NCBI GenBank assembly: GCA_016212095.1
Contig: JACRHH010000036.1
Span: 1-64,000 of the forward strand
Length of the DNA stretch: 64,000 nucleotides
Direction: 5' to 3'
From: Nitrospirota bacterium
GTDB taxonomy: Bacteria > Nitrospirota > Thermodesulfovibrionia > SZUA-242
The notes under the pieces are model-generated. The model was not told the origin of the DNA and ran no database searches. It saw only the letters and a list, made by a program, of their open reading frames with translations. Positions 13,284 to 24,993 of the stretch are shown here, piece by piece; position 1 is the first letter of the stretch, and each line of letters opens with the position of its first letter. The translations under genes were made by a program, and so were the position numbers.

Positions 13284-14366
13284 TCAGCGTTCTTCCAGAA
13301 ACATCCGCAGATCTTCCGGCGTGTTCAGGTTGGTGAATGCCGGCACGAACTCTTCCGGAACCGCAGGCGTGGCAACCTTCAGATGATCGGCCAGTCTGCG
13401 TAGCCGCAACTCGCCCCGCAATGCCATCGTCTCAACCTCCGGCATGATCATCGGCTCGTAGCAGGCGAATAATGGTTCGGGGCGATCCTTCCCGGCAAGA
13501 TGCGGCATGACGGCCCATCGCCCTGCCCTGCGCTCGCCAAGAAGCCACCGGATAGCTTCCGGCGAAATTCTGGGCATGTCAACGGCGCATATTAGCCATG
13601 CCGACTCCGGCGACCATCGCATTGCCGCCACAAGTCCGGCGATTGGCCCGGAGATGTGGGTTGCATCCGGCAGTCTGTCGAGCATTGCGAGGCTTTCCGG
13701 AACATGCCCGGCTCCAAGCAGCATCGGCGCCGCGGAGCCGGTTGCCTCGCCCAGAACACGGGCAATCCGCGCGGCCATCGGTTCGCCGTCGATCAAAATA
13801 CCCGCCTTCGGCCTGCCCATGCGCGAGCTTTTGCCGCCGATCAGGATTCCGCACCGCAAAGGGCGTTCACGCACTGAACGCTCGATCTCGCCGCGCACTA
13901 TTTCGAGAAAACGTGCAAGTCTGTCCGGCGCGCCCCACTGAAGAATTTCAAAGGGCGGAATGTCGGATTCGGGCGGCGCGATCCTGTCCGTTCCTTCAAG
14001 CCAGACACGCCTGATCGGCGCGCTTTTGTGTCCTTCCACCAGCACGATGTCAACATCGCGCGGAACAAGCCGCGCCGCGCCGGCAAGCTCAGGCCCGCAG
14101 GAAGTCACAAGAATCGATTCGCGCGGGCCATGACCCAGAACCGAAACCGCTCCGGCCCGCGTGAAACGGGCGGTGTCGGAACCCGGACGGTCGATGTCGA
14201 GGCCGTGCCGGTCGTGCTTGATGACGGCAACGCGAAATCCGGCGTCGCATAGCGGGGGAATCGCCGCCTCTATCAGCGTTGTCTTGCCGGAGCCGGAATA
14301 GCCGCAGACGCCAAGCATAAGGTTATGGAATGGAAACACGCGCTGACGGCCAGCGGAATTCGTCAC
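13284..14366 (-). CDS. MobB-MobA fusion, molybdenum cofactor guanylylation
   Basis: The N-terminal half (residues about 14-165) is MobB, a GTPase-like P-loop protein with GVCGYSGSGKTTLIEA and AVIKHDRHG. The C-terminal half (about 170-360) is MobA, which attaches GMP to molybdopterin to make the guanine dinucleotide cofactor. Its motif is ILIGGKSSRMGRPK, followed by ICAVDMPRISPE. Fusions of the two occur in several bacteria. The product implies molybdoenzymes of the DMSO reductase family (formate dehydrogenase, nitrate reductase or similar) elsewhere. The start is GTG. Confidence 0.93.
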   Translation of the reverse strand: MTNSAGRQRVFPFHNLMLGVCGYSGSGKTTLIEAAIPPLCDAGFRVAVIKHDRHGLDIDRPGSDTARFTRAGAVSVLGHGPRESILVTSCGPELAGAARLVPRDVDIVLVEGHKSAPIRRVWLEGTDRIAPPESDIPPFEILQWGAPDRLARFLEIVRGEIERSVRERPLRCGILIGGKSSRMGRPKAGILIDGEPMAARIARVLGEATGSAAPMLLGAGHVPESLAMLDRLPDATHISGPIAGLVAAMRWSPESAWLICAVDMPRISPEAIRWLLGERRAGRWAVMPHLAGKDRPEPLFACYEPMIMPEVETMALRGELRLRRLADHLKVATPAVPEEFVPAFTNLNTPEDLRMFLEER

Positions 14367-20880: not shown

Positions 20881-20957
20881 TTGTCATTCCGGCAGTAATC
20901 AGGCCGGAATCCGGAACGCCTTGAAAAACTGGATTCCCGCCTTCGCGGGAATGACAA
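20881..20957. repeat. 77-bp dispersed palindromic repeat
   Basis: The ends TTGTCATTCC (20881-20890) and GGAATGACAA (20948-20957) are perfect inverted repeats. Inside are CCGGAATCCGG and CCCGC-CTTC-GCGGG hairpins. This is a common type of dispersed repeat in proteobacterial and related genomes. It lies between the ribF-fusion stop and the start of the binding-protein gene and may serve as a terminator. Confidence 0.75.
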
Positions 20958-20983
20958 ATCACAATCCCAAAATAATGCAATAT

Positions 20984-22681
20984 CTACGCCAGAATCTCCT
21001 TCGCCACCATCACATCTTTCCTTATCTGCGCCGTCAACGCCTCAAGCGATTCAAACCGCTTCTCGTCGCGGATTTTCCTTACGAAAAATATCGTGATCTC
21101 CTTGCCGTAAATATCGCGCGAAAAATCGAACAGATGCGCCTCCACGCAGAGTTCGCGCTTGTTGAAGGTGGGCCGGAACCCGGCGTTCACCACGCCGTCG
21201 AACTGGCTTCCCTCCACAAACGCCCGCACGGCATAAACGCCCGGGTAGGGCATGATCTCGTGAACCGGCTCAAGGTTGGCAGTCGGAAAGCCAAGAAGCC
21301 TGCCCCGCCTGTCGCCGCCCACAACTCTGCCGGTAATGGCGTATGGTCTGCCCAGAAGCCGGGCGGCGTGCTCAACGTCGCCAGCGCGAAGCAGATCGCG
21401 AATCTTGGTGCTGCTTATCACCTCGCCGTCAACCGCAACCTCGCGAACCTCGTTCACGCTAAAACCAAGCTCCGCGCCAAGCTCGCGAAGCGTATCAACC
21501 GGTCCCTCGCGCCCGCGCCCGAACCGGTAGTTGAAGCCCACGTAAACCTCGCCGGCGTTCAGCGTGTCTTTAAGAATCGTTTTGGCGAAATCGCGCGCGC
21601 TCATGGCGGCAATCTCCGGCGTGAACGGGATCATGAGCAGAATATCTATGCCAAGCTCCTGAAACATCGCCACTTTTTCGTCATACGTGCTGATAAGCGG
21701 CGGGCACGCCTTCGGGGCAAGAATCTTTAGCGGATGCGGATGGAAGGTAAACACAATTCCGCAGCCGCCGATCTCACGCGCCCTGCCGACCACCTGACGC
21801 ACAAGCGTCTGATGCCCCACATGCAGGCCGTCGAAGTTTCCCAAAGTGATAACGCCGGGCCTGCCGCAGCAGCCTGCCGCATGATCGAGCGAGGTTATCA
21901 GCTCCATGCGCGGCCCGCCAACCAGCCCGGTAAGCTCGCGGAATATCGCCTTGCCGATTTCAATTCCCTGATCGATGAACTCCGGCCCGTACAATCTGCC
22001 GGTTTGGGTGCGGAACGTCTCCTTGATCCGGCGAATGTAGTCCAGATTCTGGAGAAAGCGCCTGTGCAGGCTTTCAAGCGTGGGGCCGCCCGCCGATTCC
22101 ATCATCAGCCAGAGCGTGTGGGTGAAGTTGTCCGGCCCCCAGCGGAACTTGTCGGCGTCGTAGAGCACATCGCTTATCAGCCGGGAGATTTCATCGGCCG
22201 GCTCATTGGCCAAATCATCGGCCTGTTTGAACGCCTCGTGGTTTTGAATGGCCAGAACAATCGCGCTCTTGAGGTTGCCGGGAATGTCGAAGTCCCTGAT
22301 GATTTCCGCCGCAGCAGCAGCTCCGGCAAGCGCGTGGTGCTTCTCTGCCCGCTTGATGTCGTGCAGAAGCGCGGCTGTCTGAACGGCAAGCATCAGCAAA
22401 TTCGTTCCGTTCGCATAACGTATACCGCGAGCCTCCGCCTCCACGCGCACCAAAGCGCCCGCGTCTCGCGCCACAGCCTCGGCGTGTTTCAGGCCATGCC
22501 CCATATTCTCGGACGACGGGCCGATGAGCTTGCGGCATTCGGCCAGAATCGGCGACTCGGCAAGCATCCGCTCCGAAACCGCCAGCGCGCCAGGATAATC
22601 CGCATGAAAACGCGGCTGCGGCTGGCCTGCCGCGAATTCCCGCGCCCTCTGTTTAAGCGCCCGTTTCTGCTCGGCTATCAA
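20984..22681 (-). CDS. ribF: Fusion of HD phosphohydrolase domain and RibF (riboflavin kinase / FAD synthetase)
   Basis: Residues from about 259 (MELITSLDHA) to 565 form a complete RibF: adenylyltransferase motif GNFDGLHVGH and riboflavin kinase motifs RRGRLLGFPTANLE and VNAGFRPTF. It converts riboflavin to FMN and FAD. Residues 1-250 form an HD-superfamily hydrolase with HGLKHAEAV, LLHDIKRAEKHHALAG, IQNHEAF and DADKFRWG, so the metal ligands appear complete; it resembles YpgQ-type HD proteins. The reading frame is continuous and no ribosome-binding site precedes Met259, so this looks like a real fusion. The start is TTG 16 bases after the previous stop. The HD substrate is unknown. Confidence 0.9.
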   Translation of the reverse strand: MIAEQKRALKQRAREFAAGQPQPRFHADYPGALAVSERMLAESPILAECRKLIGPSSENMGHGLKHAEAVARDAGALVRVEAEARGIRYANGTNLLMLAVQTAALLHDIKRAEKHHALAGAAAAAEIIRDFDIPGNLKSAIVLAIQNHEAFKQADDLANEPADEISRLISDVLYDADKFRWGPDNFTHTLWLMMESAGGPTLESLHRRFLQNLDYIRRIKETFRTQTGRLYGPEFIDQGIEIGKAIFRELTGLVGGPRMELITSLDHAAGCCGRPGVITLGNFDGLHVGHQTLVRQVVGRAREIGGCGIVFTFHPHPLKILAPKACPPLISTYDEKVAMFQELGIDILLMIPFTPEIAAMSARDFAKTILKDTLNAGEVYVGFNYRFGRGREGPVDTLRELGAELGFSVNEVREVAVDGEVISSTKIRDLLRAGDVEHAARLLGRPYAITGRVVGGDRRGRLLGFPTANLEPVHEIMPYPGVYAVRAFVEGSQFDGVVNAGFRPTFNKRELCVEAHLFDFSRDIYGKEITIFFVRKIRDEKRFESLEALTAQIRKDVMVAKEILA

Positions 22682-22696: not shown

Positions 22697-23101
22697 TTAC
22701 GCGTTTCCAACGGTTTCCGGGCCGCCGATTGCGCCAAATCCGTCGCTTTCACCCGATTCAACCGAACGGCGATAGACTTCGACAGACTCCTCGGCCACCT
22801 GCTTTATCATCTCAGCCTTCGCCTGCTCAAGCCGCGCAACAGGAATCTTGAGCGGCCCGGCGATTTCCTCAAGAGCCTCGCCCCTGTTGAAATGCATCTC
22901 GGCTACCAGAATCTTCAGATAATCGTCGATTATGATCTTGCGAAGCTCCTCATTTTCCACCTTGATGGCGGAACAGGCCTCGTCGAAGCCCATGCCGCCG
23001 TCAACAGCCGCCTTGATTGCGGTCATCGCCTCGTCGTAAATCCTGTTTTCGTCATCGTCGTAACCGTCTTCGGCAACAATGCCTGTCCATTCCTTAGCCA
23101 T
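22697..23101 (-). CDS. Hypothetical acidic helical protein
   Basis: I do not recognise this 134-residue protein. It begins MAKEWTGIVAEDGYDDDENR, is acidic and helical throughout, and has a repeated pattern of Glu/Lys-rich helices (VENEELRKIIIDDYLKILVA, EEIAGPLKIPVARLEQAKAE). A ribosome-binding site (AAAGGA) precedes ATG 23101. No signal peptide, membrane helix or Cys is seen. It lies 16 bases before the HD-RibF gene and was probably transcribed with it. A soluble adaptor or DNA-binding role is possible, but nothing proves it. Confidence 0.75.
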   Translation of the reverse strand: MAKEWTGIVAEDGYDDDENRIYDEAMTAIKAAVDGGMGFDEACSAIKVENEELRKIIIDDYLKILVAEMHFNRGEALEEIAGPLKIPVARLEQAKAEMIKQVAEESVEVYRRSVESGESDGFGAIGGPETVGNA

Positions 23102-23117
23102 AGTATCCTTTCTAGCA

Positions 23118-23147
23118 GTCAACAGGGGGCTGAAGCCCCCTGTTGAC
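23118..23147. terminator. 14-bp perfect hairpin at the end of the TrmH-type gene
   Basis: GTCAACAGGGGGCT and AGCCCCCTGTTGAC form a perfect 14-bp stem with a 2-base loop. The stem contains the stop codon and last eight codons (QQGASAPC) of the methyltransferase. It is strong enough to act as a terminator or to separate this gene from the next one, but a T-run is lacking. It may be a repeat unit that has provided a new C-terminus. Confidence 0.55.
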
Positions 23148-23943
23148 TTCGCTTTCTCACAATCTCATATATCACAACCGCCGCCGCTGTCACGTTCAGG
23201 CTCTCGGCCCTGCCGAACACCGGAATCGAAACCGCTTCATCAAGCGCGCCACGCACCGGCTGGCGCAGCCCCATGCCCTCGCTTCCAAACAGAAGCGCAA
23301 CCGGGCCATCCGCCGATATGTCCCAAACGCTTGCGCCGCCAGCATGTCCGTCCGCGCCAACAATCCGCATTCCGCGCGACTTCGCCCAGGCAATAAACTC
23401 TTCCGGCGCTGCCCGCGCAACAGGAATGAAAAAGACGCTTCCGGCAGACGAACGAACCGCTTTCGGGCCAAGCGGATCGGCTGAGCCGTCCAGAATTATC
23501 ACCGCGCTTGCGCCCGCGGCCTCGGCTGTTCGCACAAGACCGCCCAGATTGCCCGGATCCTGAATGCCGTCGGCCACAACCACAAGCGCATCCGGCGCAA
23601 GTTCCATGGCTTCAAGCGCCGGAAATTCAATTACTGCAACCGCCGCCACGCCCTGCGGGGTTCCGGTGGTTGCGATTTTCCGCATAACGGCGTCGGAAAC
23701 CTCGACAATATCGGCTTCAGCCCGGCAGGATATTCCCGCGATTTCGACGTCAGCTTCAGCGCCAGGCGCAATAAACAGCTTTTCGATCCGCGCTCTTGAA
23801 GATTCCAGCGCCGCGCCAATTACATGCGGCCCTTCAAGCAGAATGCGCCATGCGCCGTCTCGATTTTCCGGTTTGTGAAGCCTGACAACCTCCTTCACAA
23901 GCGGATTAGACGCGCTTGTGATCTCTTTTCTAGGCGGCGGCAT
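23119..23943 (-). CDS. TrmH/SpoU-family RNA 2'-O-ribose methyltransferase
   Basis: This is a SPOUT methyltransferase of about 274 residues. An N-terminal substrate-binding domain (ITSASNPLVKEVVRLHKPENR) precedes the knotted catalytic domain, with motif 1 VVADGIQDPGNLGGLVRTAEA, motif 2 LLFGSEGMGL and motif 3 SIPVFGRAESLNVTAAA. It probably methylates 23S rRNA or tRNA; the site cannot be predicted. ATG 23943 overlaps the HD gene stop by 14 bases; the long upstream frame is an Arg-rich shadow. The last residues come from a palindromic repeat. Confidence 0.92.
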   Translation of the reverse strand: MPPPRKEITSASNPLVKEVVRLHKPENRDGAWRILLEGPHVIGAALESSRARIEKLFIAPGAEADVEIAGISCRAEADIVEVSDAVMRKIATTGTPQGVAAVAVIEFPALEAMELAPDALVVVADGIQDPGNLGGLVRTAEAAGASAVIILDGSADPLGPKAVRSSAGSVFFIPVARAAPEEFIAWAKSRGMRIVGADGHAGGASVWDISADGPVALLFGSEGMGLRQPVRGALDEAVSIPVFGRAESLNVTAAAVVIYEIVRKRSQQGASAPC

Positions 23944-24445
23944 TCCCCATCCAGCCCTCGATCTCGCGGTGAAGGCGAATGACCCGCCCCACTGCCGGAT
24001 TATCGCTGCCAAGCCGCCTCTCGAACATCTCCAGACACTCCTCGAACGAGACCTCCACGTGGCCCTTCGTAAGATTGTCGGCATGAGCCACGATCTTCTC
24101 CTCCGGCGTCTCCGGAACATAATCGCCCGACGGAAGCCCCAGCAGGGCGGCTTCATCCGCAGCTATGCCGGCTCCGATATGGCGCTCGATGATACGCGCA
24201 ATCCGTTCGTCGATTCCCGTTTCGCGGGCGATGCGCGCGCCTTCCACGGCATGAGTGATGCCGTGCGTGCGGCTTCGCCCGATGTCGTGCAGCATCGCCC
24301 CGGCCTCCAGAAGCTCAAGATCGAGATCTACAGACTTCACGCGGGCGGCAATCGACATGGCGGTGTTTCTGACAGACAGGCAATGCGCAACGACGTTTTC
24401 CGGACATCCGGCATCGCGCAGCATTGCAACGTATTTATCGGGCAT
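23930..24445 (-). CDS. HD-domain phosphohydrolase (TIGR00295-like)
   Basis: The 171-residue protein has the HD motif set: HCLSVRNTAMSIA, EAGAMLHDIGRSRTHGITHAVEGA, RIARIIERHIGAG and KIVAHADNLT. It resembles the small HD proteins classed as TIGR00295, whose substrate is unknown. ATG 24445 overlaps the methyltransferase stop by one base and the end overlaps the TrmH-type gene by 14 bases. A second HD domain is encoded in the same operon inside the RibF fusion. Confidence 0.88.
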   Translation of the reverse strand: MPDKYVAMLRDAGCPENVVAHCLSVRNTAMSIAARVKSVDLDLELLEAGAMLHDIGRSRTHGITHAVEGARIARETGIDERIARIIERHIGAGIAADEAALLGLPSGDYVPETPEEKIVAHADNLTKGHVEVSFEECLEMFERRLGSDNPAVGRVIRLHREIEGWMGNAAA

Positions 24446-24993
24446 CAGTCTGCTTCCTTGCGCATGATCGCCCACCGGGTGAATATCGACTTGCCGCTGT
24501 CGGTTGTGACGAATCCGCGCTGCTCGAAGATCGAAACCGTCCGCGCCATGGCGTCTTCCTTCACCTCGATGACCGGCTCATATACGGCAAGCCTGCCGCC
24601 CACCTTCAGCGCGCGCGCAATGTTGGAGGCCGCCGCGTCCTGATCGCGTATCTCGTGAAAGCTGTAGTAGAGAAAAGCAACATCGACGCTTCCGGGCGCA
24701 AGCTGAAGGGTGGCGATGTCGGCCACGCGGATTTCGATTGGCGAGTTCGGCACGACGTTTTCGAGCGACTTGTAGAGCTTCTCCGCCATCGCCTCCTGAA
24801 GCTCGACCGCGATAACCTTGCGCGCGGCCCTTGCGATAACCTCGGTGAAGAAACCGTTGCCCGCGCCGACTTCAAGCACGACCGAACTTCGGTCTATTCC
24901 GGCTGCATCAAGAATTCCGGCCCTGTTTGAAAATAGTTTTCTGAGCGGATTTCTGAGAATCCACGCATGAGAGGGAGGGCATATTGGCGCCAA
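24445..24993 (-). CDS. Class I SAM-dependent methyltransferase
   Basis: The 182-residue protein has SAM motif I VVLEVGAGNGFFTEVIA, motif II VIAVELQEAMAE and the post-motif region DVAFLYYSFHEI. These are features of small class I methyltransferases of the ubiE/COQ5-like group. The start is TTG 24993, supported by GGAG six bases upstream. It is the first gene of the minus-strand run that ends with HD-RibF. The substrate is unknown. Confidence 0.85.
   Translation of the reverse strand: MAPICPPSHAWILRNPLRKLFSNRAGILDAAGIDRSSVVLEVGAGNGFFTEVIARAARKVIAVELQEAMAEKLYKSLENVVPNSPIEIRVADIATLQLAPGSVDVAFLYYSFHEIRDQDAAASNIARALKVGGRLAVYEPVIEVKEDAMARTVSIFEQRGFVTTDSGKSIFTRWAIMRKEAD

Follow-up and report, generated by a model that had tools for sequence, protein, structure and literature searches.

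An HD phosphohydrolase-like domain fused to RibF in one bacterial family, with a possible role in flavin damage control

The window analysed here is a stretch of 64,000 nucleotides from a Nitrospirota bacterium, whose reverse strand encodes a protein in which an HD phosphohydrolase-like domain is followed by a RibF (Table 1). An earlier note on this DNA had described the gene as a single continuous frame, which is borne out: its 565 codons, opened by TTG, specify 565 amino acids and contain no internal stop. The motifs singled out in that note, HGLKH, LLHD, NHEAF and DADK, lie at residues 62-66, 105-108, 147-151 and 175-178, respectively, and both halves are complete, as it had claimed, with RibF scoring above the cut-off of NF004160 and all metal ligands of the HD part present. 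The hydrolase half (residues 1-254) does indeed precede an enzyme that usually stands alone, at about 310 residues. The neighbourhood was also described correctly, with a second HD protein, a Methyltransf_11 protein and a SpoU methylase encoded upstream on the same strand.

Table 1. Features of the HD-RibF locus; positions are those of the window, and the RibF part is counted from the native start Met position of stand-alone relatives.
Feature	Positions	Strand	Evidence and remarks
HD-RibF fusion gene	20984..22681	(-)	565 codons, TTG start, stop 20984-20986; likewise fused in G002 and G001
HD phosphohydrolase-like domain, residues 1-254	21920..22681	(-)	PF01966, E=8e-4; 58-member alignment; AF2 model; fold matches
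Linker GGPR, residues 255-258	21908..21919	(-)	common to 3/3 fusions; AF2 domain borders
RibF part, residues 259-565	20987..21907	(-)	NF004160, E=3e-97; TIGR00083, E=2e-79
FMN adenylyltransferase domain (FAD_syn), residues 275-426	21404..21859	(-)	PF06574, E=4e-47; GNFDGLHVGH and SSTKIR intact
Riboflavin kinase domain (Flavokinase), residues 443-564	20990..21355	(-)	PF01687, E=8e-44; PTAN and Glu514 intact
141-aa protein, directly upstream of the fusion	22697..23122	(-)	cluster c12; kept in 3/3 family f1 genomes
SpoU-family RNA 2'-O-methyltransferase	23119..23931	(-)	PF00588, E=5e-33; probable start Met76 of the mechanical ORF
Second HD protein, TIGR00295 family	23930..24475	(-)	199.6 bits vs cut-off 172
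Class I SAM methyltransferase (Methyltransf_11)	24445..24993	(-)	PF08241, E=1.5e-17

Ahead of the fusion, the genes for the second HD protein, the SpoU methylase and the 141-aa protein are arranged identically in the three genomes of f1, the family to which the window belongs, and the Methyltransf_11 gene is found in the window and in one of the other two (G002) only. The 141-aa protein matches nothing in NCBIfam and nothing in Pfam below E=0.08, and its gene was found in none of the other neighbourhoods clustered, outside family f1. The second HD gene overlaps the SpoU gene (23119-24475, reverse strand). The NCBIfam model PRK12703, a tRNA (cytidine(56)-2'-O)-methyltransferase, ends in a TIGR00295-like HD domain (E=9e-45, model positions 168-332), and the two overlapping genes of the window therefore represent the separated form of a further methyltransferase-HD pairing. 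No FMN riboswitch was detected near the fusion gene, a tRNA being the only Rfam match in the window, and scans for promoters and terminators returned no more than expected by chance. A short inverted repeat with the arms ATTCCCGC...GCGGGAAT lies 3' of the fusion gene (20930-20966), and a similar element is situated inside the damaged ribF start of another genome (G020, L170:6030-6105). Elsewhere in the window, a 360-aa ORF (13284-14366, reverse strand) resembles a MobB-MobA fusion, with an N-terminal P-loop GYSGSGKTT and a C-terminal nucleotidyltransferase motif GGKSSRMGRPK.

The RibF half is ordinary. The RibF models cover residues 274-565 and score above their cut-offs (NF004160, 325.2 bits vs 295; TIGR00083, 266.9 bits vs 184.35). 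The motifs by which the FAD synthetase family has been defined (PMC2573891) are all present, namely GxFDGxHxGH at G281-H290, SS[TS]xIR at S423-R428, PTAN at P466-N469 and the catalytic Glu at E514, and all of them are invariant across an alignment of 60 RibFs. The fusion is the only FAD_syn match, hence the only RibF, in the genome, so both cofactors, FMN and FAD, must be made by it, barring a contribution from an unrelated enzyme. The residues diagnostic of the clade of HD-linked RibFs are only L293, I330 and T425, and in the RibF alignment they give no obvious sign of a change in nucleotide specificity.

When searched alone, the HD half scores 20.1 bits with PF01966, just under the cut-off of 22 (E=8e-4), and the same model matches 35 of 58 HD relatives at E<=0.01, with the best E-value of 2e-6. 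Residues H62, H66, H107-D108, H116, H148, D175 and D177 are invariant in the 58 aligned members, and the ligand order H...HD...D of the HD superfamily is provided by H66 (or H62), H107-D108 and D177 (or D175); these candidate metal ligands are also intact in all three fusions described below. Dinuclear HD phosphatases exhibit an extended signature H..HD..H..H..D, with two extra histidines between HD and the last Asp (PMC8177086), which the invariant H116 and H148, found in the same interval, resemble as far as sequence positions go. The AlphaFold (AF2) model of the HD half is all-helical, with pLDDT of 93.4, and its best solved match in Foldseek is YpgQ with ADP (probability 1.00, TM 0.71 by target length, with a weak E-value of 6.6e-3); the top solved matches include YpgQ-ADP, 2PQ7 and YedJ, all at probability 1.00 and E of 0.007 and weaker. 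The HD half is thus predicted to fold as an HD protein of the YpgQ/2PQ7/YedJ type. YpgQ is a Mn-dependent nucleotide pyrophosphohydrolase (PMC8177086), the reaction typical of such enzymes being the conversion of (d)NTP into (d)NMP and PPi, and 2PQ7, the only significant solved sequence relative of the HD half (E=5e-7), is an uncharacterised protein; the substrate is not readable from the fold.

Among named families, the closest is the HD part of the DVU_1551 NTP transferases (NF045665), which matches all 58 members (best E=5.6e-11), although at 42 bits against a cut-off of 315 the HD half is not a member. The YqeK model TIGR00488 (cut-off 70.15) is absent from the families listed for the fusion or for the 58 HD members, and its best match in the genome, of 23.3 bits, is at another locus; we have therefore rejected the notion that the HD half is a displaced YqeK. 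There is no curated name for this HD family in the family libraries searched.

The fusion is not confined to the window. A search for genomes with the identical arrangement, as the earlier note had proposed, found it in frame in both other family f1 genomes examined (G001 and G002), which makes three genera in total. In G002 it is full-length, with 563 aa and 68% identity over residues 8-564 of the query; in G001 the gene is split over contigs C169 and C186, which share an exact 144-bp overlap in frame, and of the contig ends inside the gene one lies after the HD half and the other before RibF. The connection between HD and RibF is short (4-6 residues): in the AF2 model the last HD helix spans residues 226-253 and the first RibF strand residues 260-262. 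The linker peptide is GGPR in all three cases, encoded by different codons (GGC GGG CCG CGC, GGC GGC CCA AGG and GGA GGT CCC AGA). Both halves are under purifying selection, with pairwise dN of 0.33-0.41 for HD and 0.18-0.21 for RibF, and with dS saturated or above 2.

Two trivial explanations, both foreseen in the earlier note, are that a sequencing error joined two genes, or that RibF is made only separately, from Met259. The fusion is real, and an assembly or frameshift artefact is excluded because the same in-frame joint recurs in three genomes of three genera. As to a separate RibF, an ATG is retained at the native RibF start in the window and in G001, and in G001 it is immediately preceded by the Shine-Dalgarno-like GGGAGG; G002, however, has CTG at this position, the GGGAGG is found in G001 only, and the linker peptide is constant although its codons change. 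The native start and its Shine-Dalgarno sequence are not kept across the three fusions, so a full-length product is expected in all three genomes, and internal initiation from a non-conserved start may yield an additional RibF product. Taken together, the two artefact explanations are very improbable.

Outside family f1, the HD gene and ribF are co-directional neighbours in 13 related genomes (12 loci in family f17 and one in f20), with HD first and a gap of 5-21 bp before ribF. In G190 both genes share a reading frame that is interrupted only by a single TAA, and G177 retains a remnant of HD, with an internal deletion, in front of ribF; genus g35 of f17 possesses RibF without HD. Several f17 genomes have lost HD yet keep RibF, which indicates that HD is dispensable there. 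In the HD tree the three fusions form one clade (100/97), and in the RibF tree all HD-linked RibFs, together with their HD-less relatives, form one clade on a long branch (100/100); in the linked pair of f20, an HD of the f20 type is paired with a RibF of the HD-linked clade. The pair or the fusion has been kept in at least 16 genomes of three families, and the genes upstream of it change between f1 and f17. We infer that the ancestor had an adjacent, partly overlapping HD-ribF pair, which was lost in some lines and fused once, in f1.

The HD family is far more widespread than its link to RibF. A scan of public genomes returned at least 239 loci, the best 80 of which were examined and belong to Nitrospirota, Desulfobacterota, Zymogenia, Poribacteria and Actinomycetota; within Thermodesulfovibrionia, the class of Nitrospirota that includes family f1, the HD half occurs in 45 of 230 genomes. 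Most members are not near ribF and stand alone in varied contexts, and when the whole protein served as query in eight genomes of other groups, HD and ribF proved unlinked in all of them. Outside Nitrospirota the neighbours comprise c-di-AMP synthase, fmt/peptidase S58 with a YfbR-like HD protein, and moxR/coxE, among others; given this variation, the context points to no single substrate, and the domain could act on something other than a flavin. At L121, L129, L138, L140, L152 and L163, all in a Desulfobacterota-type clade, the gene immediately upstream of HD encodes a c-di-AMP synthase (DAC + YbbR); at L132, L148, L150 and L151 and at L161 and L164, HD adjoins genes for a MoxR-like ATPase and a CoxE-like VWA protein. 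The latter association occurs in both Syntrophaceae and Actinomycetota, with different gene order.

No further HD-RibF fusion was found among the matches listed for 396 Nitrospirota genomes. In the phylum around G231, a Syntrophaceae relative, 50 of 395 genomes carry the HD half, and the convincing HD ORFs are always too short for a fusion with RibF. A frame of 813 codons with HD in G192 was set aside, since the ORF had been lengthened mechanically at its N-terminus, antisense to the neighbouring gene, and HD and ribF are separate there; the long ribF frames of G107, G109 and G198 (515-587 codons) are also mechanical extensions, with no HD upstream in the stretches read.

A further line of evidence concerns PF24102, the COG1058 domain of the FLAD1 type. 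In family f17 it is present in all 12 HD-less genomes as compared to 7 of 15 HD-bearing ones, and in f20 in all 12 HD-less genomes as compared to 4 of 8; pooled, these are 24/24 vs 11/23, and no genome lacks both. Counting genus lineages, the pooled p-value is about 0.002, a figure from which relatedness has been partly removed and which is uncalibrated against control genes. The complementarity is not universal, as both HD and PF24102 are missing from 70 of 229 genomes of the class; it is partial and confounded by descent, and we regard it as suggestive. The window's own genome has no match to PF24102, and the fusion does not qualify as FLAD1-like, i.e. as a MoCF/COG1058 domain fused to the synthase. 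In G020 (L170:5260-6250) a gene for a COG1058/FLAD1-middle-domain protein lies directly upstream of ribF, whose 5' end is broken by an inverted-repeat element and lacks the usual start codon before GNFDG. This pair was set aside as evidence, owing to the damaged ribF and to the arrangement being found in no other genome listed.

What the HD half does may be approached by analogy. The reading that we consider the most likely, with a probability of roughly 0.4, is that the protein would be a bifunctional synthase/hydrolase, in which a damage-control or recycling pyrophosphohydrolase is tethered to FAD synthase. The C-terminal RibF would make FMN by its kinase and FAD by its adenylyltransferase, and the N-terminal HD domain, a putative metal-dependent phosphohydrolase of the YpgQ/2PQ7 fold type, would cut the phosphoanhydride bond in dinucleotides or nucleotides arising at the adenylyltransferase site. 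Candidate targets are surplus FAD, mis-made FAD analogues from CTP, GTP or dATP, or a wrong nucleotide substrate, and HD would act as a damage-control or recycling partner, like YqeK for NadD or the COG1058 domain for human FAD synthase. We favour this tethered hydrolase because the HD-ribF linkage is conserved, the ligands are invariant, the predicted fold is that of YpgQ, precedents exist and the occurrence of HD is partly complementary to that of COG1058. The linkage, the precedents and the partial complementarity also support, though only indirectly, the suggestion of the earlier note that the HD part may act on FMN, FAD or a nucleotide by-product, and most of the HD family occurs away from ribF. 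We infer, rather than observe, the catalytic activity of HD, its substrate and any coupling to RibF; the full-length model has pTM of 0.59 and leaves the domain orientation undefined, so no channelling can be argued. The most specific version, a built-in HD pyrophosphohydrolase removing FAD or its analogues, which would parallel NadD-YqeK in the flavin pathway and stand in, without homology, for the COG1058 FAD hydrolase that is fused to the unrelated FAD synthase of animals and algae, is doubtful.

Close behind the tethered hydrolase, and nearly as probable, comes an uncoupled fusion of operon neighbours, in which HD would be an independent housekeeping nucleotide (pyro)phosphohydrolase encoded beside ribF, the stop codon between them having been lost in one family. 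Such a history fits the HD family being mostly unlinked to ribF, the relatives that lose HD and retain RibF, and the single stop codon that separates fused from unfused in G190. It accounts less readily for the retention of the pair or fusion in at least 16 genomes of three families despite changing upstream genes, for three genera having retained the fusion, GGPR linker included, in spite of codon divergence, and for the partial complementarity with a type of hydrolase known to act on FAD. It is unlikely that HD serves RibF as a regulator or scaffold without catalytic activity: its dispensability in some relatives and the inactive pyrophosphatase domain retained by land-plant FADS (PMC9678776) would agree with such a role, but the plant domain has lost a catalytic residue, whereas all candidate metal ligands of HD are invariant, the three fusions included. 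Less likely still is hydrolysis of a cyclic or linear signalling nucleotide, e.g. c-di-AMP, with the link to RibF incidental or regulatory. The c-di-AMP synthase gene that directly precedes HD in six Desulfobacterota-type loci would fit such a substrate but is a neighbour in one branch of the HD family only, and the fold matches to cyclic-nucleotide phosphodiesterases, which might hint at such a substrate, are weak (E>=0.1, low TM) and rank below YpgQ and 2PQ7.

Damage-control enzymes have been discovered through hydrolase domains fused to cofactor adenylyltransferases, as in cases listed by a gene-fusion survey (PMC4921024) and in the NadD-YqeK study (PMC9426524). The main text of that survey covers RibF and names no HD partner for it, and the literature accessible to our search contained no paper pairing RibF with HD, an earlier unremarked listing being possible. 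A hydrolase fused to a cofactor adenylyltransferase is a known kind of protein; the pair of HD and RibF appears to be undescribed, as does a stepwise series from split to fused HD-ribF within one bacterial class. By analogy, the fusion of family f1 suggests a bacterial equivalent of the enzymes that join synthase and hydrolase in human FAD and mycoplasma NAD synthesis. If HD acts on FAD or its analogues, this would provide a function for a conserved HD family of at least 239 loci that bears no curated name in the libraries searched and reveal another independent way of pairing FAD synthesis with FAD hydrolysis.

Compared with bifunctional bacterial RibFs (NF004160/TIGR00083), residues 274-565 of the fusion are complete and ordinary, with all motifs, and the difference resides in the 254 extra N-terminal residues. 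The HD half shares with YpgQ of B. subtilis and with 2PQ7 the HD fold and the order of metal ligands, but it is only about 18% identical, is longer by about 60 residues and has added invariant motifs around RWGPDNF, TFR and GPE. The DVU_1551 family likewise combines a nucleotidyltransferase, which is MobA-like, with HD; there, however, HD is located at the C-terminus and not at the N-terminus.

The adenylyltransferase NadD and the N-terminal domain of RibF belong to one nucleotidyltransferase superfamily, which brings the fusion close to NadD-YqeK. FADS have been compared with NMNATs (PMC2573891), and in the Mycoplasma NadD-YqeK an HD hydrolase cleaves NaAD analogues made by its own NadD (PMC9426524). 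In both cases an HD hydrolase is fused to a cofactor adenylyltransferase, with split neighbours in relatives; on the other hand, NadD-YqeK serves the NAD and not the flavin pathway, its YqeK is C-terminal whereas HD is N-terminal in the fusion and is followed by the adenylyltransferase and then by a riboflavin kinase domain, and the HD of the fusion does not match the YqeK model TIGR00488. Human FAD synthase contains an N-terminal FAD hydrolase dependent on Co2+/K+ (PMC6941110), and both halves of algal FADS are active; in land-plant FADS the hydrolase persists in a dead form, a catalytic residue having been lost (PMC9678776). The fusion resembles these human and algal enzymes (FLAD1, FADS1) in being an FAD synthase with an N-terminal hydrolase domain, putative in the case of HD, so that a single chain would both form and degrade FAD, but both halves are unrelated in fold, MPTb/COG1058 with a PAPS-reductase-type synthase on one side and HD with RibF on the other.
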